DNA from: a virus
IMG/VR virus record: IMGVR_UViG_3300021081_000023
Location: 1-21,526 of that record
Strand: one strand, 5' to 3'
DNA: 21,526 bases
Shown: piece after piece, positions 3,578-21,526 of the stretch
Numbering within the stretch: position 1 is the first letter of the stretch
Layout of the letters: each line of letters begins with the position of its first letter
Notes under the pieces: generated by a model
What the model saw: only the letters and a program-made list of their open reading frames with translations
What the model was told of the DNA's origin: nothing
Database searches by the model: none
Program-made: the position numbers and the translations under genes

Positions 3578-3602
3578 CTGTTTCGTCCTCTCTTTCTTTC
3601 CC

Positions 3603-4651: not shown

Positions 4652-6799
4652 CTAATCGGCGTCCATTATCGACCGGCGGAGGGCTTCCGCCGATCTGGGA
4701 GTGTCCGGGGAGTCCGGGTTATCCCGGTCGCCGTCAGCCTCCCTGATCGTGTAGTCCAGTAGACCCCTCACATGGGCCTGGGCGGCCCTGTAGGCGGCCT
4801 GGAAGGCCACGGCCATGGAATAGGACTGATAGTCCGGTTCGGTCGCCTCCGGACCGCTGGGGAAGGGGCTGAAGTCGCATTGTACGGGCGCGGCAAAGGT
4901 GGGATTGGGTGGATTCTGCCGGTAGATCCTGGTCGTGGGGTCCGGCTGGGTGGACCAGACCGGGCATCTTTCCGTTGGCCCATCCACACAGTCCGGAAGG
5001 TTGTTGAGGTCCAGTTGGCCGTGCCAGGGGGGCATACCCCAGCGGGCGTCCGGGCAGTAGGGCAGGACAATCCATACGGGGATACCCAGGAGGCGGCACA
5101 GGTGGGCCACCACCGTATCAACCGTCACCACGGCGTCCATGCCGGTCAGGAACACGGCCAGATCGTGGGTGGAGCCGATATGGGGAGTCAGGTCCTGGAC
5201 TCCCAGCGGCATCCGGATCTGGCCTGGGTAGTAGGCCCGCTGGACCGAGAACAGGCGCATGGGTGGATCACAACCCAGGTGCGGACTCAGTTTGGTGACG
5301 ATACCGGCCACAAGGTCATCCCGTACGGATCTGGCCCAGTCGCCTGGGTGGGCTGGAGACCCGTGCCAGCAAAGGCCCACGTTGGCTACTCCGTCGTAGC
5401 GGCGGACCGGGCAGCCGGACTCGTCCAGGTCCAGAGCCTTTTCCAGCTCAAAAGTCAGATCGCTTAGAGGGGTGGTTACAGACAGGTCGATATCCTGATC
5501 CGGCCAATCCGGCCTGTTCAGGAGTGCGGGGATGTCCATGTGGCCAATCCACAAGCGGTCCGAGTCGAACTGGTCCATGGCTTCGGCTGGGCTCTGAATG
5601 GCGACGGCGCTGGCCAGCGTGGCGTGAGATATCACGGTATGGATCAATTTGGCGTTGGCTACCGGACAGACGATCTTGATGAGCCACTGGCCGAATACCT
5701 TGCCGTCGCTCCACATCCGTCCATCGGTTGAGTTGCGGGCCTTGACGACGGTCCGGATGAACTGGACCAGTTTGGGGAGCGCCTGTATCTGGTCGCCAAG
5801 TCCCTGTTCCATGTAAATCCCGACTGGCCCGGTCAGTCTCTCCATGCTTACCAGACCGGGGTCCGTCAGCCGTCCGGAGTTTCTGTTACAGGCCACCGTG
5901 TAATCGTTCACCGGGTAATTGAGCCAACGTCTGAAGTTGGGGAACTCCGATATCTGCCCGTGAATCAGGTGGAGTCCGTCGATCATGGACTGGGCTAGAA
6001 CCGTCATGCCGGTCCTGGTAGCGGCGTCCTGGTCGCCCCATTCGATGGAATACGGTTTTGGTCTGGTCTCCCCGTCTTTCCAGTCTTTCCGGTCTTTCCG
6101 GTCCTGTACCGAGATTCTGACCGATTCCCGGTCCACCGAATCGGGGCCTCCCTCTTTGGCCATGCGGTAACACTCGTGGTAGGCGGCTAGTGCCTGCCGG
6201 TAGTATCCACCGTTTTCCGGGGTACCCCAGGCGGCATCCATACGGGCCAGCACGGACCCCAATTGGAACCACATGACGGCCCGTTTGGGCCAGAGTGCAA
6301 TCGCCCAGCGGCTGTAGGTCTGGGCCAGTTGCAAAGCCCCGGCCTTCATGTGGCATACGCTCATGTTGTGGAAGCAGACTGCCCGCTCCCTGGTGTGGTA
6401 CTTGGCCGGGTCCGGCTCCCGCCTGTCCAACCCTTCGTACAGCTCCAGGGCGCGGCCACAGGCTTCCCGGCAGGCCTTGAACCATGTGGCGTCCATCTGG
6501 GCCAACAGGCTCCCCAGATTGATCCACGCTTCTGGACTTCCCCCACCCTCACGCCGGGCGCAATCGGCCAACAGGATCATAGCCGTTTCCTTCATCGGCA
6601 CGGGCAAGGCCATCAGTTGAATAGCGGCGGCCAACTGGTGATCGTGAATCAGCGTGGGGTGGTTGAACACGTTGGCCAGACGCCCGTAGGTATGGCGCTC
6701 CCATTCCTCCGCCGTCCTGGGACCTTGCGTCCGGCCAGCCGACTTTTTCCCAATACCGGCTACCTCATCAATATAATCGGCGTCGAATTCATCGCTCAT
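4652..6799 (-). CDS. TPR-repeat protein with glycosyltransferase-like (GT-B/heptosyltransferase-type) C-terminal domain
   Basis: A 715-residue two-part protein. Residues about 70-225 are TPR-like helical pairs (AWINLGSLLAQMDATWFKACREACGRALELYEG; AVCFHNMSVCHMKAGALQLAQTYSRWAIALWP; AVMWFQLGSVLARMD...ALAAYHECYRMA). A charged linker with three (R/W)KD repeats follows, then a glycosyltransferase-like half: MEQGLGDQIQALPKL (about 330-344), VGLCWHGSP, and HDLAVFLTGMDAVVTVDTVVAHLCRLLGIPVWIVLP (about 545-580), ending DARW, where bacterial TPR-glycosyltransferases usually have DWRW. These motifs resemble the sugar-nucleotide binding half of family 9-like enzymes. ATG at 6799 has GGAG 9 bases upstream; TTG at 6814 is an alternative. 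Probably works with the adjacent FkbM enzyme. Function by family, target unknown. Confidence 0.85.
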   Translation of the reverse strand: MSDEFDADYIDEVAGIGKKSAGRTQGPRTAEEWERHTYGRLANVFNHPTLIHDHQLAAAIQLMALPVPMKETAMILLADCARREGGGSPEAWINLGSLLAQMDATWFKACREACGRALELYEGLDRREPDPAKYHTRERAVCFHNMSVCHMKAGALQLAQTYSRWAIALWPKRAVMWFQLGSVLARMDAAWGTPENGGYYRQALAAYHECYRMAKEGGPDSVDRESVRISVQDRKDRKDWKDGETRPKPYSIEWGDQDAATRTGMTVLAQSMIDGLHLIHGQISEFPNFRRWLNYPVNDYTVACNRNSGRLTDPGLVSMERLTGPVGIYMEQGLGDQIQALPKLVQFIRTVVKARNSTDGRMWSDGKVFGQWLIKIVCPVANAKLIHTVISHATLASAVAIQSPAEAMDQFDSDRLWIGHMDIPALLNRPDWPDQDIDLSVTTPLSDLTFELEKALDLDESGCPVRRYDGVANVGLCWHGSPAHPGDWARSVRDDLVAGIVTKLSPHLGCDPPMRLFSVQRAYYPGQIRMPLGVQDLTPHIGSTHDLAVFLTGMDAVVTVDTVVAHLCRLLGIPVWIVLPYCPDARWGMPPWHGQLDLNNLPDCVDGPTERCPVWSTQPDPTTRIYRQNPPNPTFAAPVQCDFSPFPSGPEATEPDYQSYSMAVAFQAAYRAAQAHVRGLLDYTIREADGDRDNPDSPDTPRSAEALRRSIMDAD

Positions 6800-6819
6800 T
6801 TTGTGGTTCTCCAATCCAT

Positions 6820-7443
6820 TTATTCCGTATGTTCGGGCGTTTCGTTGTTATGGTCTTCAGCCTTGCCATGTACTTCGGCCTTGGCCTCATCCTTGTAGCG
6901 GAGCATCTGAGCCCAGTTGCTATCCAGCTCTCCCTGGGTGAACTCAAAGCCGTATACCGCATATTCGGGCCGGGCGTTGGCAAATCCCCGCTGGTAGTCG
7001 CCATTGACCCAGAACACATGGAGCCAAGCCTCACGGACTCCCAGGGCGTGGCAGTAGTTTTTCATCTGGGCCATCCAATACCATTCCTTGGACCAGTTCT
7101 CCGATCTCCGTTTGGACTTCCAGGTCAGCTTGAATTCATGCAACCGGCCCCCAGTAGCATCTAGCGTCAGTCCGTCCGGGGTCATGACTATCCCGTCCTG
7201 TTCGATCTCCCCAAAGTGGTACATCATGCCCGGTATCCTGGTGCTGAGCCATTCCTCCCAGGCCAGACCCAGGCTCATCCTCAGGACGGCTACCTCGTCC
7301 GGCCCCTCCTCGTCATCGTCGATCTTCAGGAATCCGGCCCTGACGGCGATGTACTTGACGATCCCGCTGGCGTGAACTCCGGAGGACCGGCCATGGCCAT
7401 CGTCCATCTGAACGTGGTTCTGTTCGACTATCCATTGGCGCAT
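6820..7443 (-). CDS. PD-(D/E)XK nuclease (YqaJ/RecB/Cas4-like)
   Basis: A 207-residue predicted exonuclease-type protein. The active site can be read as GLAWEEWL (Glu63/64), MTPDGLTLD (Asp90) and HEFKLTW (Glu103-x-Lys105), the TPDG...E-x-K arrangement typical of YqaJ-like and RecB-like phage nucleases. WYWMAQMKNYCHALGVREAWLHVFWVNGDY follows, matching the helix and strand that carry the conserved Gln/Tyr motif (QMKNYCHALG). ATG at 7443 has AAGGGG 8 bases upstream. It is followed closely by the TPR-glycosyltransferase gene. With the RecA-like ATPase and helicase it would supply end resection for recombination; that role is inferred. Confidence 0.85.
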   Translation of the reverse strand: MRQWIVEQNHVQMDDGHGRSSGVHASGIVKYIAVRAGFLKIDDDEEGPDEVAVLRMSLGLAWEEWLSTRIPGMMYHFGEIEQDGIVMTPDGLTLDATGGRLHEFKLTWKSKRRSENWSKEWYWMAQMKNYCHALGVREAWLHVFWVNGDYQRGFANARPEYAVYGFEFTQGELDSNWAQMLRYKDEAKAEVHGKAEDHNNETPEHTE

Positions 7444-7505
7444 GATCCGGTCCCCTTTCGTTCACTCATCCGATTGGCCTATTGCCGTCTACCATCTCCA
7501 TTCCC

Positions 7506-8372
7506 CTACTGGGGCATGGACACGTCGGCCCCGTCCACCACAAACCCGTTTCCGGCCAGCCAAGCGGCATTGATCACGCCACTGATGGCGTTTTTGGTTT
7601 TGGTGTCCAGGCTCTTGTCCTTGTTCAACTCGCGGAATGAAAAGACCTTCAACTGATTGATGGGAGTCGTTCCCTTTTCCAGCAGTCCGGTCACCACTCC
7701 GATAGCGATGTTGTTCATGTCATCGTCTCCGGCCGGAGCCTCCGCCTGGGCCTCCTCAGCCGCCGCCGCCGTGGCCGTAGCCGTGGTGGCAGCCGCCGCC
7801 ACCGAATTGGTCTTGGCCGCCGCCCCCGTGGGTTTGGCCGCCGTCGCCGCCGCCGTCGCCGTCCGTTTGGCTCCGGCTCCCTTCTTGTCCCAGGGCAGAC
7901 TGATCACTTTGTCCACCACCAGGATCTGGGCTTCCCGGCCCTCTTTTTTCTGGACCGTGAACGCGCCGTCCCGCTTGGGGGCCGGTTTCCGGACCACGTG
8001 GAACTTGGAGCCCTCCAGGATGCTGATATCGTCCTTAAGCGGCGTCAGGTCCCCCCCGGAGTCCGTGATGGACCGGATGAAGTGGTACCAGTTGGACGAC
8101 TGGGTCAGATGCTCTTTCCCGTTCGGGCTGATCAGCGTCTTTCCGTCATCGTCCGGATTGGGTTGGAAGTTGTCCAGGCTACCGGCGCTGAGGAATTCCT
8201 CATGCTCGTCGGAGCCATCCAACGGCTCCATGGTGATCCGGCAAGCCAGTACCGGGGGATTGACCGTACCCTGGTAGTCCCACTCCGTCCAACGCAGGTT
8301 GGTTAGGGTGACATCCACATCCTGCATGAGCCCGCCCCTGATATAGGTGTCGGGGTGCAACATGATTCCCAT
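7506..8372 (-). CDS. Candidate single-strand DNA-binding/recombination accessory protein with Ala-rich linker
   Basis: A 288-residue protein in three parts. Residues 1-165 look like a beta-rich domain (DVDVTLTNLRWTEWDYQG, ACRITMEPLDG, SILEGSKFHVVRKPAPKRDG, REAQILVVDKVISLPW). Residues about 168-225 are a low-complexity Ala/Thr/Lys linker ending in an acidic patch (EEAQAEAPAGDDD). Residues about 226-288 form a compact helical domain (IAIGVVTGLLEKGTTPINQLKVFSFRELNKD...NAISGVINAAWLAGNGF). ATG at 8372 has AGGAG 8 bases upstream. No family was recognised by motif. A DNA-binding domain, linker and C-terminal module, next to a helicase and nuclease, resembles how phage ssDNA-binding proteins are built, but that function is only a suggestion. 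Confidence 0.6.
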   Translation of the reverse strand: MGIMLHPDTYIRGGLMQDVDVTLTNLRWTEWDYQGTVNPPVLACRITMEPLDGSDEHEEFLSAGSLDNFQPNPDDDGKTLISPNGKEHLTQSSNWYHFIRSITDSGGDLTPLKDDISILEGSKFHVVRKPAPKRDGAFTVQKKEGREAQILVVDKVISLPWDKKGAGAKRTATAAATAAKPTGAAAKTNSVAAAATTATATAAAAEEAQAEAPAGDDDMNNIAIGVVTGLLEKGTTPINQLKVFSFRELNKDKSLDTKTKNAISGVINAAWLAGNGFVVDGADVSMPQ

Positions 8373-8437
8373 GTTTTTTTCTCCTGTTTTGTCTTTCCCG
8401 GCCCCCCCTCTGGGAGGCCGTCTGTCTGCCCCAGGAA

Positions 8438-8456
8438 AAGTTTAGAGTCTAAACTT
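8438..8456. promoter_or_regulatory. Operator candidate B, between helicase and Ala-linker protein genes
   Basis: AAGTTTAGAGTCTAAACTT is a perfect 19-base palindrome about a central G. It lies in the 173-base gap after the helicase stop, about 65 bases before the ATG at 8372. No clear sigma70 promoter was found next to it. Confidence 0.78.
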
Positions 8457-8545
8457 CCCATTACTTTTGCCATCCGGGGTCATTATCGTCAATGGGTTAC
8501 GGACCAAGTGGCAGGGGCGGTCCGGCCCAAAAGAGCCAAAGAAGA

Positions 8546-10186
8546 CTAATGGTTTATGAGGTCTATCAGGTCCAGGGCCTTGGGAGCCTGGGGGACCTCC
8601 ACCATATGCCTGACCAGACCGCGCCACCAGTTGGGGTAGTGGCCGGGGAACCGTTTGAGGGCCGCCTGGACCGAATCGTCGATGACGAAGTTTTCACACT
8701 GGTCGTCGTCGGCACGGGTACCGCGTCCGGTGGATTGGACCAGGGTCATGGCCATTTCGTAGCTGAGATAGGAGCCGTCCTTATCCATGCGGGCCTTCAT
8801 CACGGCGGATTTGAGATCGGGGAATGGGGCTTTGCAGATGATCTGAAATTCACATTCGGTGTAGGGGAAGTCATAGCCGGTGGAGACTGACGGGGTGACC
8901 AGGACCACGGGCTCCCGGCTGGACTTGAATTCCTCCACTGTACGCATGGCCGATCCGGGCCGGTTGTCGTTGAGGATCATGGTATGGCTATGGCGGGAAG
9001 AGGCCCGGATACGCTTGGCACGGTCGAAAGAGACGGTATGAATGATGCCTTTGCGGTCCCGGCGGCCGTCCAGGATTTCGTCGATCCGTTCCACCAGCAT
9101 CCAATAATCGGCTTCGTCGGATTTGTAGTTCAGCTTGACGGTTGGGATGAAGTGGACCGGGGAGCGCGAGGGTGGGAAAAATGAGTCGTAGTCGTAGAAG
9201 CGGGAGGAGTCTGGAGGGCAGCCCAGCATCTGGAGAGTCTTGGGCATCATGGTGGCTGAAATGAGACGGATATTGGGGATGCCCTGGAACAGGATCTCTT
9301 CGGCGTATTCCTTGGCCCAGACAAGCTGAATCCTGAAGCCGTCCTCACGGCCATGGACGGCGTCCACAACCCACTGGCCACGTAGCTTGATCAGGATCTC
9401 CAGTTTGGACACAAGGCGCTTGTAGCTTTTAAGGCGATCCATGGCGGACGGTCCGCCGTCCAGGCCCATGAGCATCTTGGTGGCCAGCTCGGTGGCCAGT
9501 TGCTGGACCTTGCCGATGTTGGCCTGGGCAAACGCGGTCCACTCTTTGGGATTGAGCGGCCAGCGTGGCCAGTCGGTTTGCAGGACCCGGATCACGTCAT
9601 AGGCCGTCATATAGACGTTGACGGCGTCACAAATGAAGCCGGGGGCGTCGTGGGCTTCATCCAGGACCAGCAGATCGAATTCGCCCAGGCCGTCCCCGTA
9701 TTGGTTGATGGCGCACCAGTAGGCGTAGTTGGTGACCACCAGTTGGGAATCCATCGCCGTGTAGTACTGCTCACGGTAGGGACAGTCCGTTTCGTTGCGG
9801 CGTTTTTTCGACTCGTGACAGCCCATGTGTGGTCCGTCCTCACACGTCCGGGGCCGGTCGTGCGGGGCCTCTATACAATCGAAGTTTCCACGGCCCTTGA
9901 CGGCGACCAGACCACAATGTCCGAAGTCGGCCAGTAGCTGGTCCTGGAGTCCCTTGGTGGCGGTCAGGATACAGGTCCGGCAACCCCGCATCATGGCCTC
10001 ACCCATGTAGACCAGACTTTTACCGGAGCCGGTGGGCATGGCATGGGCCACGAATCGACGGTTTGAATCCAGACCGGCGCTGATAGCTTCCGTCTGGCCC
10101 GGCCGCCATGCCTTGAACTTGGGTGGCAGGCCCAGGTCATGGGGCGACAGACCGGACAGGGCCGGGTTGACGCTGGTGGCTTTCAT
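8546..10186 (-). CDS. XPD/DinG-like superfamily 2 DNA helicase with Fe-S cluster cysteines
   Basis: A 546-residue ATP-dependent helicase. Motifs in order: Q-like AWRPGQTEAI (26-35), Walker A MPTGSGKS (50-57), motif Ia LTATKGLQDQL, four cysteines (104, 115, 123, 135) in the position of the XPD/DinG 4Fe-4S domain, VTNYAYW (151-157), DEAH box LVLDEAHD (173-180), motif III LISATM (308-313), TPSVSTGYDFP (431-441) and motif VI QSTGRGTR (484-491). It is shorter than E. coli DinG (over 700 residues) but holds all core motifs. ATG at 10186 has GGAG 8 bases upstream. An array of heptamer repeats lies between it and the upstream gene. Expected polarity is 5'-3', from the family. Confidence 0.92.
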   Translation of the reverse strand: MKATSVNPALSGLSPHDLGLPPKFKAWRPGQTEAISAGLDSNRRFVAHAMPTGSGKSLVYMGEAMMRGCRTCILTATKGLQDQLLADFGHCGLVAVKGRGNFDCIEAPHDRPRTCEDGPHMGCHESKKRRNETDCPYREQYYTAMDSQLVVTNYAYWCAINQYGDGLGEFDLLVLDEAHDAPGFICDAVNVYMTAYDVIRVLQTDWPRWPLNPKEWTAFAQANIGKVQQLATELATKMLMGLDGGPSAMDRLKSYKRLVSKLEILIKLRGQWVVDAVHGREDGFRIQLVWAKEYAEEILFQGIPNIRLISATMMPKTLQMLGCPPDSSRFYDYDSFFPPSRSPVHFIPTVKLNYKSDEADYWMLVERIDEILDGRRDRKGIIHTVSFDRAKRIRASSRHSHTMILNDNRPGSAMRTVEEFKSSREPVVLVTPSVSTGYDFPYTECEFQIICKAPFPDLKSAVMKARMDKDGSYLSYEMAMTLVQSTGRGTRADDDQCENFVIDDSVQAALKRFPGHYPNWWRGLVRHMVEVPQAPKALDLIDLINH

Positions 10187-11780: not shown

Positions 11781-11991
11781 CCCCTTTAGGACCGAGACCG
11801 GGCCGGACGCGCCGGACTGCCAGCTTGTCCTCCACCAGACCGTTGAGGGCCACGACGCATAGGAATTTGGCCATGTGGATATGAGAGGGCTTGAGTAGTT
11901 CACTCACCTGGGCCGGGGTGAACCACTCATCGGGCAGGGACCGGGCGGCGTCCCGAAGGAAGTTGAGGACCTGGGTCTCACGGTCGGTCAT
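11743..11991 (-). CDS. Small winged-helix protein, excisionase- or regulator-like
   Basis: An 82-residue protein reading as a compact winged helix: DRETQVLNFLRDAARSLPDEWFTPAQVSELLKPSHIHMAKFLCVVALNGLVEDKLAVRRVRPG...LCEYRLRVV. ATG at 11991 shares ATGA with the recombinase stop and has GGAGG directly upstream, so it is made with the recombinase. Its 3' end converges on the regulator gene and overlaps it by 38 bases. Directionality factors are often small winged-helix proteins encoded beside the integrase, so that role is possible but not shown. Confidence 0.72.
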   Translation of the reverse strand: MTDRETQVLNFLRDAARSLPDEWFTPAQVSELLKPSHIHMAKFLCVVALNGLVEDKLAVRRVRPGLGPKGATLCEYRLRVVR

Positions 11992-12611
11992 TGCCTCCGT
12001 CCTCCGTTGCGTTTCCCTTTCTTCCTGTCGGCTTTCCAGTTTACGTCCACCCTGGGTTCCTCACCGGGCTTTTCATAGGCCAGCTTTTCAGTCCTCTTCC
12101 TCATCGGGCTGGTGAAGGCCGTGTATTCCATCGTGCTCAGGATCGAACGGTGTCCAAGCCAGTTCTGGACCGCCAGCAACTCCGCCCCCTTTTCCAGCAG
12201 ATGGACGGCGATGGAATGGCGGAGGGTGTGGCAATGGCGTATGTCGGCGGGCCACGACGCCGGGGCATACCGCTTGATCAGGTTGTCCAGCATCCGGCGT
12301 CCGATGCCATGGCCGTGGCGGGAGGGAAACAGCGGGCCGGGCTGGGAGCCCCTGACCCTGACCCATGCCGATACCGCCTTGACTTCGTCCGGACCGGCGA
12401 AGTACTGGCCGGAGTTGGAGCCCTTGAGCCGTTTGATGAACAACTGGCCCGTGTCCGGCCTCCAGTCGTCAAGTTGGATCGTGGCCACTTCCGACGCCCT
12501 TAAGCCCCGCCAGTACATGACCGTGAAAAGGGCGTGGTCACGAGCTGAGGCGGCCTTGGTCCTCTCCAGGAGTTCTCCCACCTGTTCCTGGGTGGCGTAT
12601 TTGATAGGCAT
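11988..12611 (-). CDS. Tyrosine recombinase/integrase, catalytic domain only
   Basis: A 207-residue site-specific recombinase. All catalytic residues are present: Arg38 (RGLRASEV), Lys63 (RLKGS), His128 and Arg131 (CHTLRHS), His154 (WLGHRS) and the nucleophile Tyr163 (MEYT). The usual N-terminal core-binding (SAM-like) domain of phage integrases and XerC/D is missing, so the size resembles FimB/FimE invertases and solitary recombinases. The C-terminus is a basic tail (NWKADRKKGKRNGGRRQ) that may help hold DNA. ATG at 12611 has GAGAGGA 7 bases upstream. It is followed by a small winged-helix gene. No attachment site was found beside it. Integration, dimer resolution or DNA inversion are all possible. 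Confidence 0.88.
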   Translation of the reverse strand: MPIKYATQEQVGELLERTKAASARDHALFTVMYWRGLRASEVATIQLDDWRPDTGQLFIKRLKGSNSGQYFAGPDEVKAVSAWVRVRGSQPGPLFPSRHGHGIGRRMLDNLIKRYAPASWPADIRHCHTLRHSIAVHLLEKGAELLAVQNWLGHRSILSTMEYTAFTSPMRKRTEKLAYEKPGEEPRVDVNWKADRKKGKRNGGRRQ

Positions 12612-13334: not shown

Positions 13335-13382
13335 CCACCAGTCCGGCCACCAGTCCGGCCACCAGTCCGGCTACCAGCGTTC
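13335..13382. repeat. 12-base tandem repeat downstream of the dockerin gene
   Basis: Three exact copies of CCACCAGTCCGG and a partial fourth that runs into the 3' end of the dockerin gene. The adjacent GGCCAC/GTGGCC pair (13316-13336) could form a 6-base hairpin. It has no T-tract, so it is not called a terminator. Confidence 0.75.
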
Positions 13383-14117
13383 CAGCGGGGCCACCGGATT
13401 CACCCCCCTATTCAAAGCCTGCATTTCGGACCAGGACACCCCGTACTTGGCCCAGTCGATCTGCTTCATATTGTTCAGCGCAATCGGCGGGTTCATTGAA
13501 AAGATCACGATGAGAACGTCCAGGATCTTGCAATTGCCATCCCCGTTCTGGTCGCCGGTACAGGGGACCAGACCAAGCGCCTGATCAATGATCGACTGAA
13601 CATCGGCGGAGTCAATGTCTCCGTCCAGGTCAAGGTCCGCCTTGGCCGCTACCCGGAACGAGAACGCCGGGCCTGAGACGAGGGGGACCGCCAGCCCGAT
13701 ACTTCCACCGGCCTCCAGACCCGACAGCGGCAACTGGACCAGACCGGCCGCAGTTCCGGCTGGTACGGGGATGGTGTAGACCGCTACCGGCCCGTTGGCG
13801 ATGGCGTTCTGATTCGCCCCGGCTATCAGGCATTTCGATTTGTCGGCTGTGCAGTAGAGGGTCTTGGCCGCCGCCGTCCCGGCCGTGCCAATAACGGCCG
13901 TGGCCGTGTAGCCAGTGGGGATGCCAATGGTCCACTGGATTCCGGCCACTGGGTTAGCCACCGTCGATGTCAGCCCCAGGGTGGCCGTCACGGTCTGTCC
14001 CGGTCTCACGATTGGAGTGCCGGTTACGGTCAATACAGATTGCGCCGCCAGCAGAGCCGGTAAGGCGAGAGCCAACAGCGAAAGGCGGATAGTCGTTCCG
14101 GTAGTCGTTCTGGTCAT
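13371..14117 (-). CDS. Secreted protein with cohesin-like domain and dockerin-type calcium-binding repeats
   Basis: A 248-residue predicted exported protein. Residues 1-25 are a signal peptide (basic start, IRLSLLALALPALLA core, AQ cleavage site). Residues about 27-156 look like a beta-sandwich of the cohesin type: PIVRPGQTVTATLGLTSTV, AGIQWTIGIPTGYTATAV, GPVAVYTIPVPAGTAAGLVQLPLSG, PAFSFRV. Residues 161-210 hold two EF-hand-like loops as in dockerins: DLDLDGDIDSAD (161-172) and DQNGDGNCKILD (189-200), each followed by a hydrophobic helix. A short tail follows (NNMKQIDWAKYG...). ATG at 14117 has AGAGGA about 9 bases upstream and shares ATGA with the upstream stop. It would act outside the cytoplasm, perhaps by protein-protein or glycan attachment. 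Domain calls are by pattern; the dockerin part is clearer than the cohesin part. Confidence 0.78.
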   Translation of the reverse strand: MTRTTTGTTIRLSLLALALPALLAAQSVLTVTGTPIVRPGQTVTATLGLTSTVANPVAGIQWTIGIPTGYTATAVIGTAGTAAAKTLYCTADKSKCLIAGANQNAIANGPVAVYTIPVPAGTAAGLVQLPLSGLEAGGSIGLAVPLVSGPAFSFRVAAKADLDLDGDIDSADVQSIIDQALGLVPCTGDQNGDGNCKILDVLIVIFSMNPPIALNNMKQIDWAKYGVSWSEMQALNRGVNPVAPLERW

Positions 14118-14395
14118 GGTAATGTTTCCTCTTCTTTCATCAGGTCCTCACTGGTCAAGGCCCTGTACTGATACCGATGATACCCCTCGGGAGTGTACAG
14201 GCCCCATTCCGTCTTCTTTCTCCGTCTCCGCTCCACCAGGAGCGAATCCAATAGGCGGTCCAGCAGATAACCCGTCCTGGACAGGCTCAGGGGAGGGGAG
14301 AACTGGTCCGCCACATGCTGGGCCATCCACCACTCCGGCCTGCCCCTCAAGGTCTCCAGGACCGCCTCCGTTTGTCTCCTGTCAAGATCGGTCAT
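14114..14395 (-). CDS. Small winged-helix-like protein
   Basis: A 93-residue protein with helix DLDRRQTEAVLETLRG, segment PEWWMAQHVADQF, recognition-helix candidate SLSRTGYLLDRLLDSLLVERR and a wing (RRKKTEWGLYTPEGYHRYQYRAL). This is the plan of the other small winged-helix proteins here, but with little direct sequence match. Start ATG at 14395 shares ATGA with the stop of the upstream gene; GTG at 14404 is an alternative. It lies just before the secreted dockerin gene and could be its regulator, which is only inference. Confidence 0.7.
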   Translation of the reverse strand: MTDLDRRQTEAVLETLRGRPEWWMAQHVADQFSPPLSLSRTGYLLDRLLDSLLVERRRRKKTEWGLYTPEGYHRYQYRALTSEDLMKEEETLP

Positions 14396-15234
14396 CGGAA
14401 CCACTCCAGCAGAGCCCGGATCAACTGGCCCGCTTTGAGCCGTTCCTTGGCATGTTCGGCAAGGGCATTCCTTACCAATTCAGGGACCTTGGAGACCAGC
14501 ACGTCCTCCACCACTCCACCATCGTCCTGGGTCCTGGCTTCCACCCCAAACAGCCCGCCGATCTCCACGACCAGACCAAGGCAATAGTCCCTGTTGTCGG
14601 ACATCTCTTTGGCCGTCTCCCTCCAGGAGTCCAGTTCCCTCAACGCCTGGGAAAGTTTAGACTCTAAACTTTCCGGCTTGTGGCCGATGTGTCCGGCCTG
14701 GGCTGGGGGGCTCCATTTCCGGTCTTTGGTTCCGGTCGTCTCCGATTCGCTCCGGAAACTGAAATAGGGAATCAGTCCCCAATTCTCCGGCTTCAGTTTG
14801 TTGTAGACGATTCTCATGATAGCCCCGGTGGAGTCGTTCGCGTTCAGCTTGGCAACTTCATCTGTCAGGACAATCCGGAAGTAGATCGCCCGGTCTCCCA
14901 TAGAGTCCACACCCAAGTTCCAGAGGACGCGGACCACGACGTTAGAGTGGCTGAACGCTTCGATGGTATGGCTCACCGCTTCATTCAAATCGTGGGGCGT
15001 CTCTCTCTCTTCTGGAGCCTGGGTAGGAGATGGGGTAGGGGCCGATCCTGGGTGGCCTTCGGCTTGGTCGAAAATGAACAGGCGGACCGGCTTGAGGATT
15101 GGGTAGGGGAGTACCAGCCTGATGCATTTGTCCGTCATCGCGTTATTGAACATCATGGCCAGTTCGCCAGTGGAGATCAGGGCCACCGTCTCCCCGTCCT
15201 GAATCATGGCCGTCCACTCGGATTGGTATTTCAC
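14392..15234 (-). CDS. Conserved-looking hypothetical protein, second gene of an overlapping pair
   Basis: A 280-residue protein with no named family that I can assign. Residues about 85-165 look like a conserved alpha/beta domain: AVSHTIEAFSHSNVVVRVLWNLGVDSMGDRAIYFRIVLTDEV...IMRIVYNKLKPENWGLIPYFSFRSESE. The C-terminal 110 residues are helical, partly coiled-coil-like (SLESKLSQALRELDSWRETAKEMSDNRD). I prefer GTG at 15234: it has GGAGGGAG 8 bases upstream and shares GTGA with the preceding stop; ATG at 15252 has a poorly spaced SD. A perfect palindrome of the operator family lies inside the gene at 14651-14673, encoding ESLESKLS. The preceding small gene is probably its partner. Confidence 0.72.
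   Translation of the reverse strand: MKYQSEWTAMIQDGETVALISTGELAMMFNNAMTDKCIRLVLPYPILKPVRLFIFDQAEGHPGSAPTPSPTQAPEERETPHDLNEAVSHTIEAFSHSNVVVRVLWNLGVDSMGDRAIYFRIVLTDEVAKLNANDSTGAIMRIVYNKLKPENWGLIPYFSFRSESETTGTKDRKWSPPAQAGHIGHKPESLESKLSQALRELDSWRETAKEMSDNRDYCLGLVVEIGGLFGVEARTQDDGGVVEDVLVSKVPELVRNALAEHAKERLKAGQLIRALLEWFR
14651..14673. promoter_or_regulatory. Operator candidate E, 23-base perfect palindrome inside a coding region
   Basis: The longest copy: core TTTAGACTCTAAA at 14656-14668, with symmetry extending five bases further on each side (GAAAG on the left, CTTTC on the right). It lies within the gene at 14392-15234 and encodes ESLESKLS in frame, so it is not a simple promoter site. Confidence 0.72.
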
Positions 15235-15593
15235 CGGACTAGCTCCCTCCATGACTCCACCAGGGAAGGCGCTTTCCCCTCAAGCCAATCCACGGCGTCC
15301 CTGATAGCGTCCTGGATATTGTCCGGATCTCCGTCGAAGTGGTTGAGTGCCTCATCCTCGCTCATTCTCCCGATCAGGACCTTGATCTGGGCGTCGATGG
15401 CGTTATGGTGGTTGTCCCCAAACGCGGAGGTACGCCGGACCCTGGGATTGATCTCCACCAGCGCCTTGATCTGGGCTTCGATGGCGGACTCATCCGGCCG
15501 GACCGGGGGGGCTGGCTTGGCCGTTTTGGTCTTCGCCTTGGTCTTGGGCTTGGCCGCTTTCTTGGCTGGCCGCCCTTTGGTGTCACGTTTCAT
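15231..15593 (-). CDS. Small basic-tailed protein, first gene of an overlapping pair
   Basis: A 120-residue protein with a Lys/Ala/Pro-rich tail (residues 1-32, KGRPAKKAAKPKTKAKTKT...), like histone H1-type tails. The compact domain after it contains SAFGDNHHNAIDAQIKVLIGRMSEDEALNHF and NIQDAIRDAVDWLEGKAPSLVESWREL. AIEAQIKALVEINPRV and AIDAQIKVLIGRMSED form an internal repeat. ATG at 15593 has GGAG 9 bases upstream. Its stop overlaps the next start. I recall this domain pattern from small uncharacterised bacterial proteins but cannot name a family. Function unknown. Confidence 0.74.
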   Translation of the reverse strand: MKRDTKGRPAKKAAKPKTKAKTKTAKPAPPVRPDESAIEAQIKALVEINPRVRRTSAFGDNHHNAIDAQIKVLIGRMSEDEALNHFDGDPDNIQDAIRDAVDWLEGKAPSLVESWRELVR

Positions 15594-15611
15594 TCGTTGG
15601 GTCTCCTTTTC

Positions 15612-16355
15612 TCATCTAGTTCTGAATCCTTCCTCGCACTGGGCCTTATATAGCTTTCGGGACAGGTTGGTCTTGTCCGGACCGTCCGGCGCGGCCCATC
15701 CACGGTAAAACGCATTTCTCCCAATCTGGGCGTATTCCACCAGACCGTCCATTATCAGATCCAGGACCAGGACCTCATCCACAGGACCCAACATGGCGTT
15801 GACCGTGTCCCACTCCAGCCACCCCATACGCCACTCGGGGCTATAGCCGGGGTACATGGCGGAGAACTCTAGGAGGGTATCCAGGATGCTCTTGTGGATT
15901 CCAGTAACCGTCCTGGCGACGACGTGTCCCAGATAGACGTACTCCCAGGGCTCCCCAGGATCTAGCTCAGGGTCCCTCCCCCGGCGTAAAATGTGGTGCC
16001 ATCCACGTGAAGGCATCCTCAGGTCGGAAATTCTGGAGGACACTCCGCCACCACTGGCGGGCTGGCCGATATGGACCGCGATCTCCTGTATCGTTGCCAC
16101 CATTCCGTTAATGGCCAAGGCACGATAGGTCAGGTCCAGTTGGCTCCGGAAGGCTTCCCGGTCGTGGCCCGGTTCATAGGTCCCCCCGAAGAATCGAATA
16201 TCCCCCTTGAGCCATGGAAGCTCATCGTCCGGAATCAGGTCCGTGGTGAGTCCACCGTACAGAGTCCCGTCCTGAGCGCCGGAGAGGATCTGTTGGGATA
16301 CCACCATCATGTCCCATTTTTTGGCTGGTGGGATGACCTCAACTTTGTGCCTCAT
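15612..16355 (-). CDS. Hypothetical protein with two winged-helix-like segments, first gene of the accessory operon
   Basis: A 247-residue protein. Residues about 70-140 (RSQLDLTYRALAINGMVATIQEIAVHIGQPASGGGVSSRISDLRMPSRGWHHILRRGRD...WEYVYL) read as a winged helix, with VSSRISDLR as recognition helix. A second, less clear helical DNA-binding-like segment covers about 155-225 (ILDTLLEFSAMYPG...WLEWDTVNAMLGPVDEVLVLDLIMDGLVEYAQIGRNAFYRGW). ATG at 16355 is preferred, with AGGA 9 bases upstream; TTG at 16364 is also open. It follows a good promoter at 16412-16440 by a leader of about 50 bases, so it may regulate the accessory operon. No family recognised. Confidence 0.7.
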   Translation of the reverse strand: MRHKVEVIPPAKKWDMMVVSQQILSGAQDGTLYGGLTTDLIPDDELPWLKGDIRFFGGTYEPGHDREAFRSQLDLTYRALAINGMVATIQEIAVHIGQPASGGGVSSRISDLRMPSRGWHHILRRGRDPELDPGEPWEYVYLGHVVARTVTGIHKSILDTLLEFSAMYPGYSPEWRMGWLEWDTVNAMLGPVDEVLVLDLIMDGLVEYAQIGRNAFYRGWAAPDGPDKTNLSRKLYKAQCEEGFRTR

Positions 16356-16891: not shown

Positions 16892-17485
16892 TCACGCTAT
16901 CAGCGCCAGAACCAACAGCCCGGCCCCAATCGCCATAGCCGCCCCCAGCTCCGACCCCTCCCCGGTGATCTGTTCGGTATAGCCCAGGTCCGGCTCCCCG
17001 CCACCACCCGACCCGTCCGGCTCATCCGATCCCTCCGGCCATCCCGGATCTCCGTATCCCGGCAGGTTACCCGGCCCGCTTCCCCCGCTTGACGACCCCC
17101 CCAACACGCCACCGATCTGGACCAGCGGCGTCCGCCTGTCTATCCCCGCCCAGGCTTCCACATTGCCGACATAGGCGCTGGTCGGATTCTCGCTTGCCGG
17201 GGCGTACTTGTTGATGAACTGCTCCAGGTTCAATCCTCTCTTGGCGTCTCTCCTGATCTGATTCCGGATTCCCTGGACGCCTTCCTCCCAACTGTTCCAC
17301 CCGGCCCAGGCCCGCCCCCCGGCATACAGACTCACCGGCACGGCCCCCGTTTGCCCGGCATACATCAAATGCCCCGGATTGTACTTCCCGAATCCAGCCA
17401 CCATCCTGGCATGGGCCGCCCTGGGATTCTGCGGGTCCTCCTGCCTGATGATTGCCTGGACCAGATCCTCAATAGTACCGGCCAT
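16892..17485 (-). CDS. Muralytic/lysozyme-like phage protein with C-terminal membrane anchor
   Basis: A 197-residue protein. Residues 1-115 match the pattern of phage lysozyme-like virion proteins: IEDLVQAIIRQED (candidate catalytic Glu16), KYNPGHLMYAGQTGAVP, RAWAGWNSWEEGVQGIRNQI, KRGLNLEQFINKYAPASENPTSAYVGNVEAWAGI. A Gly/Ser/Pro-rich linker covers about 120-175. The end is one hydrophobic segment (ELGAAMAIGAGLLVLALIA, 179-197), so the enzyme should be tail-anchored in a membrane. ATG at 17485 has GGGGG 9 bases upstream, and an operator-family palindrome ends 22 bases before it. It lies after the holin-like gene and a terminator, so it forms its own unit. Wall cleavage during entry or lysis is expected from family; the catalytic residue is a guess. 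Confidence 0.76.
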   Translation of the reverse strand: MAGTIEDLVQAIIRQEDPQNPRAAHARMVAGFGKYNPGHLMYAGQTGAVPVSLYAGGRAWAGWNSWEEGVQGIRNQIRRDAKRGLNLEQFINKYAPASENPTSAYVGNVEAWAGIDRRTPLVQIGGVLGGSSSGGSGPGNLPGYGDPGWPEGSDEPDGSGGGGEPDLGYTEQITGEGSELGAAMAIGAGLLVLALIA

Positions 17486-17507
17486 TTCCGGGTACCCCCT
17501 TCAAAAG

Positions 17508-17520
17508 TTTAGACTCTAAA
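17508..17520. promoter_or_regulatory. Operator candidate F, upstream of the lysozyme-like gene
   Basis: Core TTTAGACTCTAAA, perfect palindrome, 22 bases before the ATG at 17485. It lies between a terminator and the start of a single-gene lysis unit, where a repressor site would keep lysis off. Confidence 0.75.
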
Positions 17521-17624
17521 GTCCCCCAGGGACGGCCCAGGACGCGCCCGGCTCCGGGGGGATGCTGGACTATCGCCGGAGCCTCAAGCGCCACGCCTGG
17601 GCGATCCTGTGGACGGCGTTGGGG

Positions 17625-17648
17625 CTAAAAACGGGCCTTTCAGAGGCC
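17625..17648 (-). terminator. Rho-independent terminator after the holin-like gene
   Basis: On the minus strand the stem GGCCT/AGGCC (17634-17648) with a 5-base loop is followed by a run of five T. The holin-like gene's stop codon lies within the hairpin loop. It separates the virion/holin operon from the lysozyme-like unit. Confidence 0.65.
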
Positions 17649-17909
17649 GGACGGCGGATTGGGGCTCCTCTTGCCCAGGAATCCGGCCTTGATCCCCCGG
17701 CCCAGGGAAGCCCCGGCCGGGCCACCTACCACGGAAGGCAGGAGGGAGCTTAGAATAACAATTCCGGCCATGACCCTGGGCTGGGCCTCCAGCGGTACCA
17801 ACTGGGTGACCAGCGACGGGTCTGTGACGACCGTGGCGGCGGCCACCGTCAGGACTCCCTGAAAGATTCGAAGGAACGTCTTGCCCTTGCTCTGCTTTGG
17901 TTCGCTCAC
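17640..17909 (-). CDS. Holin-like small membrane protein
   Basis: An 89-residue protein with a basic N-terminus (SEPKQSKGKTFLR), two hydrophobic stretches (IFQGVLTVAAATVV, about 15-28, and RVMAGIVILSSLLPSVVGGPAGASL, about 45-69) and a basic C-terminal tail (KAGFLGKRSPNPPSG). Size, topology and position between a coiled-coil membrane protein and a muralytic enzyme suit a phage holin, which opens the inner membrane for lysis. ATG at 17909 shares ATGA with the upstream stop. Its stop codon falls inside the terminator hairpin. No holin family can be assigned by sequence alone. Confidence 0.66.
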   Translation of the reverse strand: MSEPKQSKGKTFLRIFQGVLTVAAATVVTDPSLVTQLVPLEAQPRVMAGIVILSSLLPSVVGGPAGASLGRGIKAGFLGKRSPNPPSGL

Positions 17910-18331
17910 TTGTTTATGGCCTCCCTTTGCTTGTCTCTTTTGTCTCTCAGAATATCGCTGGCGGCCAGTTCGTCCCGGAGGAAGCGGACTTCCTCCCGTA
18001 GGTAGTCCTGGCCGGTCTTGATGCCACTCAATTCTTCAATGACGGTGTGAATGTGGTTGGCCGTACTTTTGCCCTCCACTTTTAGGTCGTCCACGTCCGC
18101 CTTCAACAGGGAGAACGTGGCCCCAAAACCCACAAGTAAAATGATTCCGTTGATGACAGCCAGAACGCCGATCCGGAATCTGATCGTTGGTCCTTTGTTG
18201 CCATTGATAGCGATGTCCACTTCGTCCTTTTTCTCCGGGTCAGGCCCAGTCCGGCCCGAAGCCGATTCGTTGATCTCACCTGTTGAGTCCAAGCCCCTGT
18301 TCAAGCCTCTGTTCCTGTCTTCATCGTGCAT
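17906..18331 (-). CDS. Single-span membrane protein with coiled coil (spanin- or lysis-accessory-like)
   Basis: A 141-residue protein: a charged cytoplasmic N-terminus (1-50), one membrane span (IGVLAVINGIILLVGFGATFSLL, about 54-76), then a coiled-coil-like region (ADVDDLKVEGKSTANHIHTVIEELSGIKTGQDYLREEVRFLRDELAASDILRDKRDKQRE). With positive residues before the span, the coiled coil should face the periplasm, as in inner-membrane spanins. The frame extends to 18364, but ATG at 18331 fits better (GGGG 7 bases upstream). It is the first gene of a two-gene lysis unit with the holin-like gene. No lipoprotein partner was found, so spanin is a suggestion only. Confidence 0.65.
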   Translation of the reverse strand: MHDEDRNRGLNRGLDSTGEINESASGRTGPDPEKKDEVDIAINGNKGPTIRFRIGVLAVINGIILLVGFGATFSLLKADVDDLKVEGKSTANHIHTVIEELSGIKTGQDYLREEVRFLRDELAASDILRDKRDKQREAINK

Positions 18332-18381
18332 CCTCGCACCCCTTTCGTTCAATCGGATGTCCAAACCTTAATACAGTTACC

Positions 18382-20055
18382 CTAGTACAGTTCCCGCCAG
18401 ACCAGCCATGCGCTCCATTGGACGTTACCGGACAGCGACTGGACGAAAATACAGACGTTGTCGGCAGTGGCTCCGTCCGCGCTGATCGTGATGGGGAATT
18501 TGTTGACTATCTGGACGGACACCGGAACGCGGTTGGCGTTGGCCGGTCCGGACGAAATGGATTGATAGGCGATTGTTCCCAGAGTGCCGAAAGTCGTACT
18601 CAGGACGGTCCCGGCCACGCTCTGGCCATCGGTCTCCGTGATGCTCCCGGTCTGGACGGCCACAAACGTTCCACCGGCCGGAGTGGAGTAGTAGGCCAGT
18701 CCCCAGTACAGATTGGCCCCCACCGTGATCCCGGCGTCTTCGATCACGATCTGGCCCCGGTTGGGCTTGGTGTTGAAAAGCAGTCTTGGCCGGATGCACA
18801 GGGCTGGCCTGAGAGTGGTCCCCGTGGTGGCTATGGTCGTACCGGCGTTGGAGGCGGAAAACACATAGCCCCGGTCGTTCTCAAAGCCGTCTTCGCTGGT
18901 GACCGTGGCACAGATCAACTGCATTTCCGTCCCCACGGTGGAGGCCGCCGTATTGACGTTCTCCGCCCGCACGGGCAGGTTAGCCGAGGCCATGTAGACG
19001 TTGTTCTGATTGTTGGCGTTGAAAATCTGGTGGCAGTAGTAGATCCGGCCATTCACGTCCAGACCGTAACGGATGCGGCCGACTCCCAGCCACTGGTAGT
19101 CGATAATGAATATCTGCGTCCTGGTGGTGTTCAGCGTGACCCCGCTTGGCCCGGTCCCGTCGAAGCGGTCCAGGTTCCAATCGGCCTGCCCGATTCTGGT
19201 AGTCGTCAGGACTCCGGCCACGGTGGAGCGGAGATTGACGGCCGCCCCGTTCTGGTCCACGGAAAAAAATAAACCGTTGGCGTCGTCGAACTGGCCGATG
19301 CGGCGGGAATTGTTGTCCCCGGCCGTACCCAGTACTCCGGTAACGATGACCAGTTGCCCCTTGCCGGGCTGGTACCTGATGTACTGCCTGGACTGGACCA
19401 CGGCGCGGCTGGCATTGGCTCCGGTCGTGGCCAGCTTGGTGGCCGATATGTTGGCCGTGTAGGTGGCCGTTCCGCTGTTGGCCGTTATGGTGGTCCACAG
19501 GAACGGGCTCAAGCTGTACTCCTGTTGGCTGTCGAACAGGGTGACCCCGTTGGAAGTCCTGAGACGGGAAAAGGCGTCCAGGTTGGCCCCGTCCCCGATG
19601 AAGGCCGTGACGGGCAATCCACTCCCGGCTCCCGGTCTGATTTTCCAGCCGATCAGATTGCCCTTGACCACCGACGCCAGAGCGGCCGTATAGCTCACCC
19701 TGATCCATGGCTGGAGTCCGAACACCTGTATCTGGTCCGATGTGTCCGTGTCGAACGTATGCGGGTTGTCCCCAGATACGACCGGGAACGTGGCGAACAC
19801 ACCTGGAGCCCCGGCGCTGGTAGGGGCGTACTCCAGGACCAGCACGGACCCGGTGGCGCTCCCCGAATCCACGTTGGTATTGAGGACCCAGTAGGTACAG
19901 CCCACTTGCCGGTTGTCGAACACGGCGCTATGGGCTACCGTGCCGGATAGCGTGAATGCCACGTTGCAATCGGGGAATTGCTGGTAGGCGGGAGGATTCT
20001 GTCCCCATATGAATCCGGAGGCCACCAGCGTCCAGAACAGGATTCTTTTCCTCAT
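18382..20055 (-). CDS. Large phage virion protein with a signal-peptide-like N-terminus
   Basis: A 557-residue beta-rich structural protein. It contains a stretch I recognise from phage particle proteins: DAFSRLRTSNGVTLFDSQQEYSLSP, VVQSRQYIRYQPGKGQLVIVTGVLG, RRIGQFDDANGLFFSVDQNG, IFIIDYQWLGVGRIRYGLDVNGRIYYCHQIFNANN. Before it are about 135 residues of other beta-rich sequence. The N-terminus MRKRILFWTLVASGFIWGQ has the charge, hydrophobic core and end of a signal peptide, which is unusual for a virion protein. Start ATG at 20055 shares ATGA with the upstream stop and has GGAGG 6 bases upstream; the frame reaching 20379 is only a shadow of the upstream gene. Exact place in the particle unknown. 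Confidence 0.82.
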   Translation of the reverse strand: MRKRILFWTLVASGFIWGQNPPAYQQFPDCNVAFTLSGTVAHSAVFDNRQVGCTYWVLNTNVDSGSATGSVLVLEYAPTSAGAPGVFATFPVVSGDNPHTFDTDTSDQIQVFGLQPWIRVSYTAALASVVKGNLIGWKIRPGAGSGLPVTAFIGDGANLDAFSRLRTSNGVTLFDSQQEYSLSPFLWTTITANSGTATYTANISATKLATTGANASRAVVQSRQYIRYQPGKGQLVIVTGVLGTAGDNNSRRIGQFDDANGLFFSVDQNGAAVNLRSTVAGVLTTTRIGQADWNLDRFDGTGPSGVTLNTTRTQIFIIDYQWLGVGRIRYGLDVNGRIYYCHQIFNANNQNNVYMASANLPVRAENVNTAASTVGTEMQLICATVTSEDGFENDRGYVFSASNAGTTIATTGTTLRPALCIRPRLLFNTKPNRGQIVIEDAGITVGANLYWGLAYYSTPAGGTFVAVQTGSITETDGQSVAGTVLSTTFGTLGTIAYQSISSGPANANRVPVSVQIVNKFPITISADGATADNVCIFVQSLSGNVQWSAWLVWRELY

Positions 20056-21035
20056 GACCCGCCTCCTCTGATCCTTTCTCCAACCGGCTTTCCGGCCGGA
20101 ATCATGTAGCCCAGGACCGCGCACAGGATCAGGCTTGCCCCCACCTGGATATTGCCGCTTGCGTTGATCGTCCTGACAATCATCCTGACCCTCCTCCCGC
20201 TCCTGACCCCAATGTAGTCCGATATTGGGAAAGCGCAACTGGGAGTCCCCAGTTCGAACAGAATCCGGCCCATGTTGCGGGCGTACACAGATCCGATCAG
20301 CAAACGCCATTCCAGATCGCCGCTTCCGTCCACAAACCCCGTACCGCTGTAGGTGCAGGACAGTTGCTGAATCCTGCACCAGTAGCCCATGGGGACCGTG
20401 TAGTCGATCACCGTGACATCGCCGTCGATGATCGCCGGGGTGGTCACCCGGCCCCGCTTGGCGAACGCTCTGGCCAGACGTTCGGGTCCAGATGCGTTAT
20501 CGAAGCGGCGCGAATTGTAGCCCGGCAGTTCGTTCGGCCCCAGATCGCCCAGTCCGCCCATTGATCCCAGTCCGCCCCCCGGTCCGTTCCGCCAAGCCAG
20601 TCCACCGACACCGCTGATGCCCGCCCCGAATCCCGGCCCGGCCTGGGTCCAGGATCTCACCACCGCCCTGGCTTCCTCCGCCTCTTCCTCCAGAGCACGG
20701 TCGTTTTCGTTCGGCCTTCTGGGTTTCTCCGGCAGCATCCTTCTACCTCCGAATGGCGTTATCACGGCCTGTGTCGGCGAAGGCGCTATCAGGACCAGTG
20801 TCCCCAGGGCCTGTCCAGCCCCGGACGCGGTCCCCTCCAACAGGAAGTCCACCAGGACCAGAAACCCCACTGCCTGCCCGGCCCCGGACGCCGTTCCGGA
20901 TAGGGAGATGGGTCCGGAGACCCCGAAAAAATATTCCACCAGGGCATCGGTTACCCCGTTGTCCGGCTTCTGGGTGACCGATGGACGGTCAACCCGTTCA
21001 CCCAACTGATTCGGGAATGCGCCATCTCCAGCCAT
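20052..21035 (-). CDS. Phage virion protein with internal repeats and C-terminal beta domain
   Basis: A 327-residue protein. Residues about 44-85 contain two copies of GTASGAGQA(V/L)G(F/T)LVL, a repeat type seen in fibre-like proteins. An acidic/basic helical stretch follows (ENDRALEEEAEEARAVVRSW), then a Gly-rich linker (GPGFGAGISGVGGLAW...GGGLGSMGGLG). The C-terminal 130 residues are a beta domain (VTVIDYTVPMGYWCRIQQLSCTYSGTGFVDGSGDLEWRLLIG...VRMIVRTINASGNIQVGASLILCAVLGYMIP), of the kind found in phage spike or decoration proteins. ATG at 21035 lies 3 bases after the upstream stop; its own stop overlaps the next gene. A minor structural or attachment protein is likely; the exact role is unknown. 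Confidence 0.75.
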   Translation of the reverse strand: MAGDGAFPNQLGERVDRPSVTQKPDNGVTDALVEYFFGVSGPISLSGTASGAGQAVGFLVLVDFLLEGTASGAGQALGTLVLIAPSPTQAVITPFGGRRMLPEKPRRPNENDRALEEEAEEARAVVRSWTQAGPGFGAGISGVGGLAWRNGPGGGLGSMGGLGDLGPNELPGYNSRRFDNASGPERLARAFAKRGRVTTPAIIDGDVTVIDYTVPMGYWCRIQQLSCTYSGTGFVDGSGDLEWRLLIGSVYARNMGRILFELGTPSCAFPISDYIGVRSGRRVRMIVRTINASGNIQVGASLILCAVLGYMIPAGKPVGERIRGGGS

Positions 21036-21038
21036 CGC

Positions 21039-21526
21039 CTACCCTTGAATAAACTCCACCGCTCCCTGCCACTGTCCGGACGCCGCCGCAGTACATAGAA
21101 CCATCAACGCCAGACACGCTCCGGAATACAGTTGTGGCATCCCCAGGGAGAAGGCGTCCATAAATACCGCCGCGTTGACTATTGAGCACGGAAGTTCCCC
21201 TACCCGCCTTAACAGGACCAGACCGAAGTCCCCCGCCGTCCCCGTGCTGATCGACAACTGAACCTGCGATACCGTCCTGACCCCGGTATCCCCGGCCGCC
21301 AACAGAAACGGAAACATCTGTCCCACGGCCAAGGCGTTGGCGGGCATGGAATAGGTGGCCGATTTGGGTCCGCCTCCGGTCGAATCCGTGTAAGTGGCCG
21401 TGAAGACGCTGGCCGTGGCCCCCATCGCCGTGTAAACCTCGCCCCACAACTCCACGTCCTCCCCCAGCGCGTCCGGCCTTGTCAGCACGGGCGGAGTGGC
21501 GATGGTCTGGGCCGCTATGCTGTTTC
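21039..21526 (-). CDS. Phage virion protein, N-terminus cut by window edge
   Basis: At least 160 residues are visible and the frame stays open to the right edge, so the start is outside; GTG at 21488 is the most upstream start inside the window. The sequence (LGEDVELWGEVYTAMGATASVFTATYTDSTGGGPKSATYSMPANALAVGQMFPFLLAAGDTGVRTVSQVQLSISTGTAGDFGLVLLRR) has the repeating beta pattern of phage particle proteins. The segment GDTGVRxVxxxxLSxSTGTAGxFGLVLLRR is the most distinctive. Part of the structural operon with the two genes after it. Confidence 0.75.
   Translation of the reverse strand, partial: NSIAAQTIATPPVLTRPDALGEDVELWGEVYTAMGATASVFTATYTDSTGGGPKSATYSMPANALAVGQMFPFLLAAGDTGVRTVSQVQLSISTGTAGDFGLVLLRRVGELPCSIVNAAVFMDAFSLGMPQLYSGACLALMVLCTAAASGQWQGAVEFIQG

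Follow-up and report, generated by a model that had tools for sequence, protein, structure and literature searches.

In a 21.5-kb virus record that was analysed over its whole length (21,526 nucleotides; hereafter the window), we identified a gene for a protein of a known virion family with a predicted Sec signal peptide at its N-terminus. The cytoplasm is regarded as the site where tailed phages assemble their particles. With moderate confidence, we interpret the product as an outer tail or appendage protein with a lectin/GH16-like core, which would be made as a Sec-exported preprotein and would later join the particle or act on the envelope. Within the family, the export signal seems to have been gained (or lost) repeatedly, and its placement in other phages suggests a recurrent habit across unrelated phage lineages, in which Sec signals are put on outer tail proteins and not on capsid, portal or interior proteins. 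The gene, its parts and its neighbours in the window are as follows.

18382..20055, minus strand: phrog_1645-family virion protein with a signal-like N-terminus (557 amino acids plus stop)
20062..20067, minus strand: Shine-Dalgarno sequence AGGAGG, six bases 5' of the ATG
20002..20055, minus strand: signal-peptide-like N-terminus, residues 1-18 (MRKRILFWTLVASGFIWG), with putative cleavage near residue 18
19585..20001, minus strand: extra N-terminal region, residues 19-157, with Cys30 and Cys53; no detectable relative
18385..19584, minus strand: conserved phrog_1645 core, residues 158-557, from profile match and model
20052..21035, minus strand: 327-residue open reading frame, ATGA-coupled to the gene above; no signal peptide and no significant family match
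21039..21488, minus strand: next upstream open reading frame, which reaches the window end, so that its true N-terminus may be cut off; no family match
17906..18364, minus strand: 152-residue downstream open reading frame with one hydrophobic segment and a charged, coiled-coil-like tail; no family match
17640..17909, minus strand: 89-residue downstream open reading frame, holin-like by reading; no family match
16892..17485, minus strand: 197-residue open reading frame with weak matches to tape-measure, transglycosylase and endolysin families

The reading frame begins with an ATG at position 20055, its translation starts with MRKRILFWTLVASGFIWGQNPPAYQQ, and the strand 5' of the coding sequence reads AGGAGGCGGGTCATGAGG. 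With AGGAGG six bases away and the stop of the upstream frame (20052-21035) overlapped as ATGA, the frame is real and well started, and the start put forward in a preliminary description of this DNA is confirmed. No promoter or terminator signals were found around the coding sequence, where the counts were near chance level. By reading, the upstream frames are structural-looking (without a significant family match) and the downstream ones are lysis-like, with 17906-18364 read as a lysis or membrane gene.

Elsewhere on the minus strand of the window, an ERCC4-type nuclease (1295-2080), a Sak4-like protein (2406-3209), a DNA helicase (8546-10186) and an integrase-like protein (11988-12611) were recognised, and a phrog_8156 methyltransferase (3603-4607) adjoins a 720-residue protein without a PHROG match (4652-6814). 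A second signal-bearing protein of 248 residues (13371-14117, minus strand; signal peptide ending in LLALALPALLAAQ) matches dockerin type I weakly (E 1.3e-4, narrowly short of the Pfam cut-off), and its start overlaps the upstream frame at 14114-14404 in an ATGA-type coupling.

Residues 1-18 of the virion-family protein consist of MRKR followed by an uncharged hydrophobic run, and resemble a Sec signal peptide. We applied a rule-based scan that requires a positive n-region, an uncharged h-core (scored as the mean Kyte-Doolittle value over 8 residues) and a permissive -3/-1 site, and that allows no second hydrophobic stretch. The window protein was accepted with a charge of +3 and an h-core of 2.41. 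At this stringency (h-core of at least 2.4 and charge of at least 3), 11 of 1983 N-termini, none of 7453 internal Met positions and 11 of 9915 shuffled N-termini were accepted, and the signal therefore stands above chance; at the loosest setting, the numbers were 85 of 1983, 83 of 7453 and 180 of 9915, respectively. The apparent signal peptide of the preliminary description is thus credible as a prediction. False positives were evident among the raw matches, such as the scaffold-like reading frame at 11120-11947 of contig L250, and the frame at 15634-16143 of contig L281 is doubtful. It is quite unlikely, in our estimate, that the hydrophobic N-terminus arose by chance or that the start is wrong, with the functional protein beginning downstream near the core, where most relatives begin. 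The false rate of 1-2% in the loose scan leaves some room for such an error, but the strong Shine-Dalgarno sequence and the ATGA coupling at 20055, the counts for internal Met positions and shuffles at the stringency of the window protein, and the region of ~130 residues between signal and core, which continues the same open frame, all speak against it.

The positive n-region and the hydrophobic h-region at a supported start correspond to what is expected of a Sec (SPase I) preprotein. The h-region is weaker than in the signal-bearing relatives (2.41 vs. 2.88-3.51), and it is not followed by a classic AXA cleavage site; by reading, the only candidates are ASG/F and IWG/Q. This lack of a clean site would suit an N-terminus that is retained as an uncleaved membrane anchor, or as a membrane-active peptide in the particle, instead of serving for export, and short hydrophobic N-termini could conceivably aid membrane penetration. 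We consider this reading unlikely, as textbook cleavage sites (SPAFA, VAYA, SSAHA, VAFA) were found in several relatives and neighbours, with the conserved part beginning right after them, and as the pattern is common to non-homologous neighbours. For the window protein, we infer that an export signal is probably cleaved near residue 18 and that assembly takes place after export. Other types of N-terminal peptide were also considered and rejected: a lipoprotein signal (no lipobox Cys at the signal end, the first Cys being residue 30), a Tat signal (no RR motif by reading) and a prohead-protease targeting peptide, a class of peptides that are charged and not hydrophobic.

Residues 158-556 match phrog_1645, "virion structural protein", with E 6.1e-73 (profile positions 50-439 of 440), in agreement with the earlier reading as a phage particle protein; no match was found to the 557-residue protein in Pfam or NCBIfam. 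Relatives (180 records, all below 60% identity) are present in cyanophages, Puniceispirillum phage HMO-2011, freshwater phage DSL-LC04 and Salicola phage SCTP-2, and in the cyanophages and HMO-2011 the family bears a virion-protein annotation. Eight annotated phage relatives were aligned with the window protein, and all of them begin near the conserved DAFGRLR core. Together with three scans of IMG/VR and one of genome contigs, these eight yielded 248 loci with the core, of which 206 were distinct and had a full N-terminus (8 partial loci were removed, and the remaining difference consists of duplicates). Similarity to the window protein, L095 or L091 served as the ranking in the three scans, each of which contributed the best 80 of 540-597 confirmed candidates, from a candidate list limited to 600; in two of the three query alignments, the leading sequence was a signal-bearing protein other than the window's own.

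The preliminary description had proposed that N-termini of homologues be compared, and had named starts downstream at the conserved part as evidence against the signal. Such starts are indeed the rule in this ranked sample, in which 198 of the 206 relatives have no signal by the scan and the median start lies ~42 residues before the core (205 rows). They do not refute the signal, since it recurs in 8 of the 206, in several lineages (L091, L095, L098, L126, L134, L135, L146 and L180), and also on some neighbouring tail proteins; as the samples were ranked and biased, this fraction does not give the rate in the population. The case of L126 is weak, with a charge of +1, a signal of 13 residues and a high-GC contig of odd composition. 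L268, identified later, brings the signal-bearing members of the family to ten; it shares 65% identity with the L095 protein, starting at residue 1. On a tree of the core alone (102 rows), the nine signal-bearing rows, the window included, correspond to 6 state changes, at least 4 of which are forced by well-supported (starred) branches, and among 500 shuffles of the labels, a single one was as low as 6. No close relative of the window phage came to light: single-protein scans with the window protein and the window helicase returned no relative, and a corresponding scan with the L250 tail protein recovered only its own contig.

In ortholog pairs, the letters of the signal diverge faster than the next 60 residues, while its character is kept. 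Identities amount to 8 of 18 positions in the signal vs. 39 of 60 in the adjoining residues for L095 and L098, 9 of 20 vs. 43 of 60 for L095 and L268, and 9 of 26 vs. 40 of 60 for L091 and L180. The protein of L134 has the signal MRKFLLIAFLMVFVSPAFA, ending in SPAFA, followed by SRFDDVNITAQD (SRFDDVNITAQDSTSIDAFGRWR), and its signal-free relative L156 starts with MSRFEKVSVTAQD (MSRFEKVSVTAQDSGSIDAFGRWR), with an in-frame stop just upstream. The signal therefore precedes, or was lost from, exactly the ordinary N-terminus of the family. A simple fusion to a host secreted N-terminus, as had been suggested for the window protein, is not the best account, since it is the signal alone that is placed ahead of the usual N-terminus in the relatives.

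The extra region of the window protein (residues 19-157) does not fold in models made without relatives (pLDDT about 31-46): residues 1-148 were below 50 pLDDT in the full AlphaFold2 model, and the N-terminal 170 residues folded alone gave a pLDDT of 31.5. A tblastn search with this region in "phages" gave no match. Its resemblance to the signal-bearing 160-residue protein of L095 and to the N-terminal domains of L163 and L166 was seen by eye only, with no significant alignment by BLASTP (E 0.34), shuffle test or jackhmmer. L163 and L166 have an extra 174 and 201 residues before the phrog_1645 core, both without a signal, and these are mutually similar by eye (FRIVYTNG-type segment).

The core, residues 158-557, was well modelled by AlphaFold2 from 66 sequences, with most blocks above 90 up to residue 400. 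In the model, residues 157-390 form a concanavalin/GH16-type beta sandwich, which aligned to GH16 glucanases and legume-type lectins with a VIA-align Z of up to 18.1 (171 residues, rmsd 2.4 Å) and matched GH16/lectin-type folds in Foldseek with E 2.4e-6. GH16 enzymes are characterised by an E-x-D-x-x-E motif, in which the nucleophile Glu is located two residues before a conserved Asp. A near-invariant D-x-[E/Q]-W-L-G motif was placed at this position by reading and not by residue-level structural alignment. Among the 196 relatives with a locatable motif, the nucleophile position is never Glu (it is Ile in the window protein); at the acid/base position, 123 have Glu, 72 have Gln and 1 has Ala. 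An active GH16 enzyme was rejected because the nucleophile position is replaced. The lectin/GH16-like core is thus probably non-catalytic, and we infer a glycan-binding or structural role as opposed to hydrolysis by the GH16 mechanism.

Predicted signals were also found on other proteins of the tail modules. In one related group, many of these proteins appear to carry them (fibres, lectins and, in single phages, a tail-tubular-B homologue), and the signals seem to be absent from the capsid, the portal and most interior proteins of the signal-bearing phages. The 15.8-kb contig L250 of the L098 phage has signals on 7 of the 10 genes from the major head gene (phrog_212) to the contig end; with the 148-residue gene left out of the count, 7 of 9 at the shuffled rate of 1.8% correspond to a probability of ~2e-11. 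In this contig and in the 36.8-kb L280/L281 of the L268 phage, the genes are distributed as follows.

L250, with signal: 775-residue fibre-like, 146-residue, Laminin_G_3, 550-residue fibre-like, phrog_1645, 107-residue and phrog_376 proteins
L250, without signal: phrog_394 tail protein, 83-residue protein, and 148-residue protein adjoining the head gene
L280/L281, without signal: terminase, portal and scaffold (by reading), major head protein (phrog_9953), and the large genes at L281 10153-13526
L281, with signal: phrog_3287 protein (6085-7671), phrog_1645 protein and 182-residue protein (2068-2616)
L281, with signal, further: 7668-7961, 7971-9749, 13951-15624 and 17455-17856; fibre-like proteins are among the signal bearers of this contig

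The family match of the L250 phrog_376 tail protein starts at residue 29 (E 7e-119), and its homologues in epsilon15 and HTVC034P start without a signal. Within the virion gene cluster of L281, a polytopic membrane protein (by reading) is encoded at 2626-3846 on the plus strand, between the head and tail genes. In L095, which is from a Desulfobacterales MAG, the four genes with a signal code for the 160-residue protein, a fibre-like protein, the phrog_1645 protein and a Gp10_C tail protein, and those without code for the major head protein (phrog_14242), a portal-like protein and a phrog_3287 protein, the counterpart of which has a signal in L281. The L180 and L091 phages have signals on the phrog_1645 protein and a large fibre-like protein. 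In the L183 phage (L259), the phrog_1645 protein has no signal; signals are present on four genes close by, among them one with a match to tail-fibre families. Two signal-bearing genes of L259, at 6298-6990 and 14400-15455 on the plus strand, have similar mature N-termini (YYTGLFWENGSSVPGTCTAPAFYY and WYGGIYYDAGTSTPGSCSPPAMFY), and the second matches tail-fibre families. Overall, 9 of 68 same-strand neighbours of signal-bearing loci have a signal, as compared to 40 of 1585 elsewhere (Fisher p 1e-4), and 6 of these 9 belong to L095 and L098. No signal was found in nearby same-strand genes of at least 120 residues around L146, L180 and L126, the fibre-like signal of L180 being seen on a longer stretch.

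The main rival to a role in the particle is that the signal is real and the exported protein acts at the envelope or cell surface, where it could cover glycan receptors (superinfection exclusion, progeny escape from debris) or serve as a lysogen adhesin. The lectin/GH16-like fold without the GH16 nucleophile fits such a role, as do the integrase-like protein and the second signal-bearing protein (13371-14117) of the window phage, and phage envelope proteins with a signal are known, e.g., Lom, a signal-bearing protein of the outer membrane (PMC12309495). We regard it as somewhat unlikely, given the virion annotation of the family in cyanophages and HMO-2011, and given that the signals in L250 and L281 include tail-machine homologues (phrog_376 and phrog_3287), a poor fit to surface decoys. 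The two roles could coexist.

For a protein destined for the particle, which is the reading we prefer, the N-terminal signal would take the window protein across the inner membrane of the infected cell and would be removed, probably near residue 18. The mature protein would then join the particle when the inner membrane opens at lysis, which we think most likely, or bind envelope glycans in place. Export, as suggested in the preliminary description, is supported at the sequence level by the signal-like N-terminus on a virion-family protein. In contrast to the L098 and L268 phages, the window phage perhaps exports just one appendage, because one upstream structural-type frame has no signal and the other is perhaps cut. 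More generally, and tentatively, we raise the possibility that in some tailed phages the outer tail parts (fibres, lectin-like appendages and the tail-tube-end protein) are Sec-exported, processed and meet DNA-filled heads at the breach of the inner membrane, a two-compartment assembly that would have been gained repeatedly by the addition of a signal to virion genes. Neither signal-bearing tail modules nor export-first tail assembly was found described in the open PMC literature that we searched. If export of tail proteins comes first, lysis could set the time at which tails are completed, the periplasm could provide disulfides to tail adhesins as they fold, and the host surface could become coated with these proteins as well. 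Annotation may file signal-bearing phage genes as host secreted, and such genes may therefore be overlooked or misassigned.

Particle proteins made with Sec signals are known from the coat proteins of filamentous phages, which assemble at the membrane without lysis and, unlike the window phage, are not tailed. The eight aligned phrog_1645 proteins (cyanophages, HMO-2011) have a core of ~400 residues in common with the window protein at 28-32% identity and start at most ~80 residues before the core without a signal, to which the window protein adds a signal and the ~130-residue region. GH16 glucanases and legume-type lectins share the fold of residues 157-390, but there is no sequence-family match and the nucleophile Glu is absent in the window family. 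Sec-exported endolysins have a canonical Sec signal like that predicted here, but are lysis enzymes and not particle proteins (PMC8951688). Lambda Lom is likewise phage-encoded, with a signal peptide and a gene located between tail genes (PMC12309495). It differs from the window protein in being an outer-membrane barrel and not a member of a virion family.
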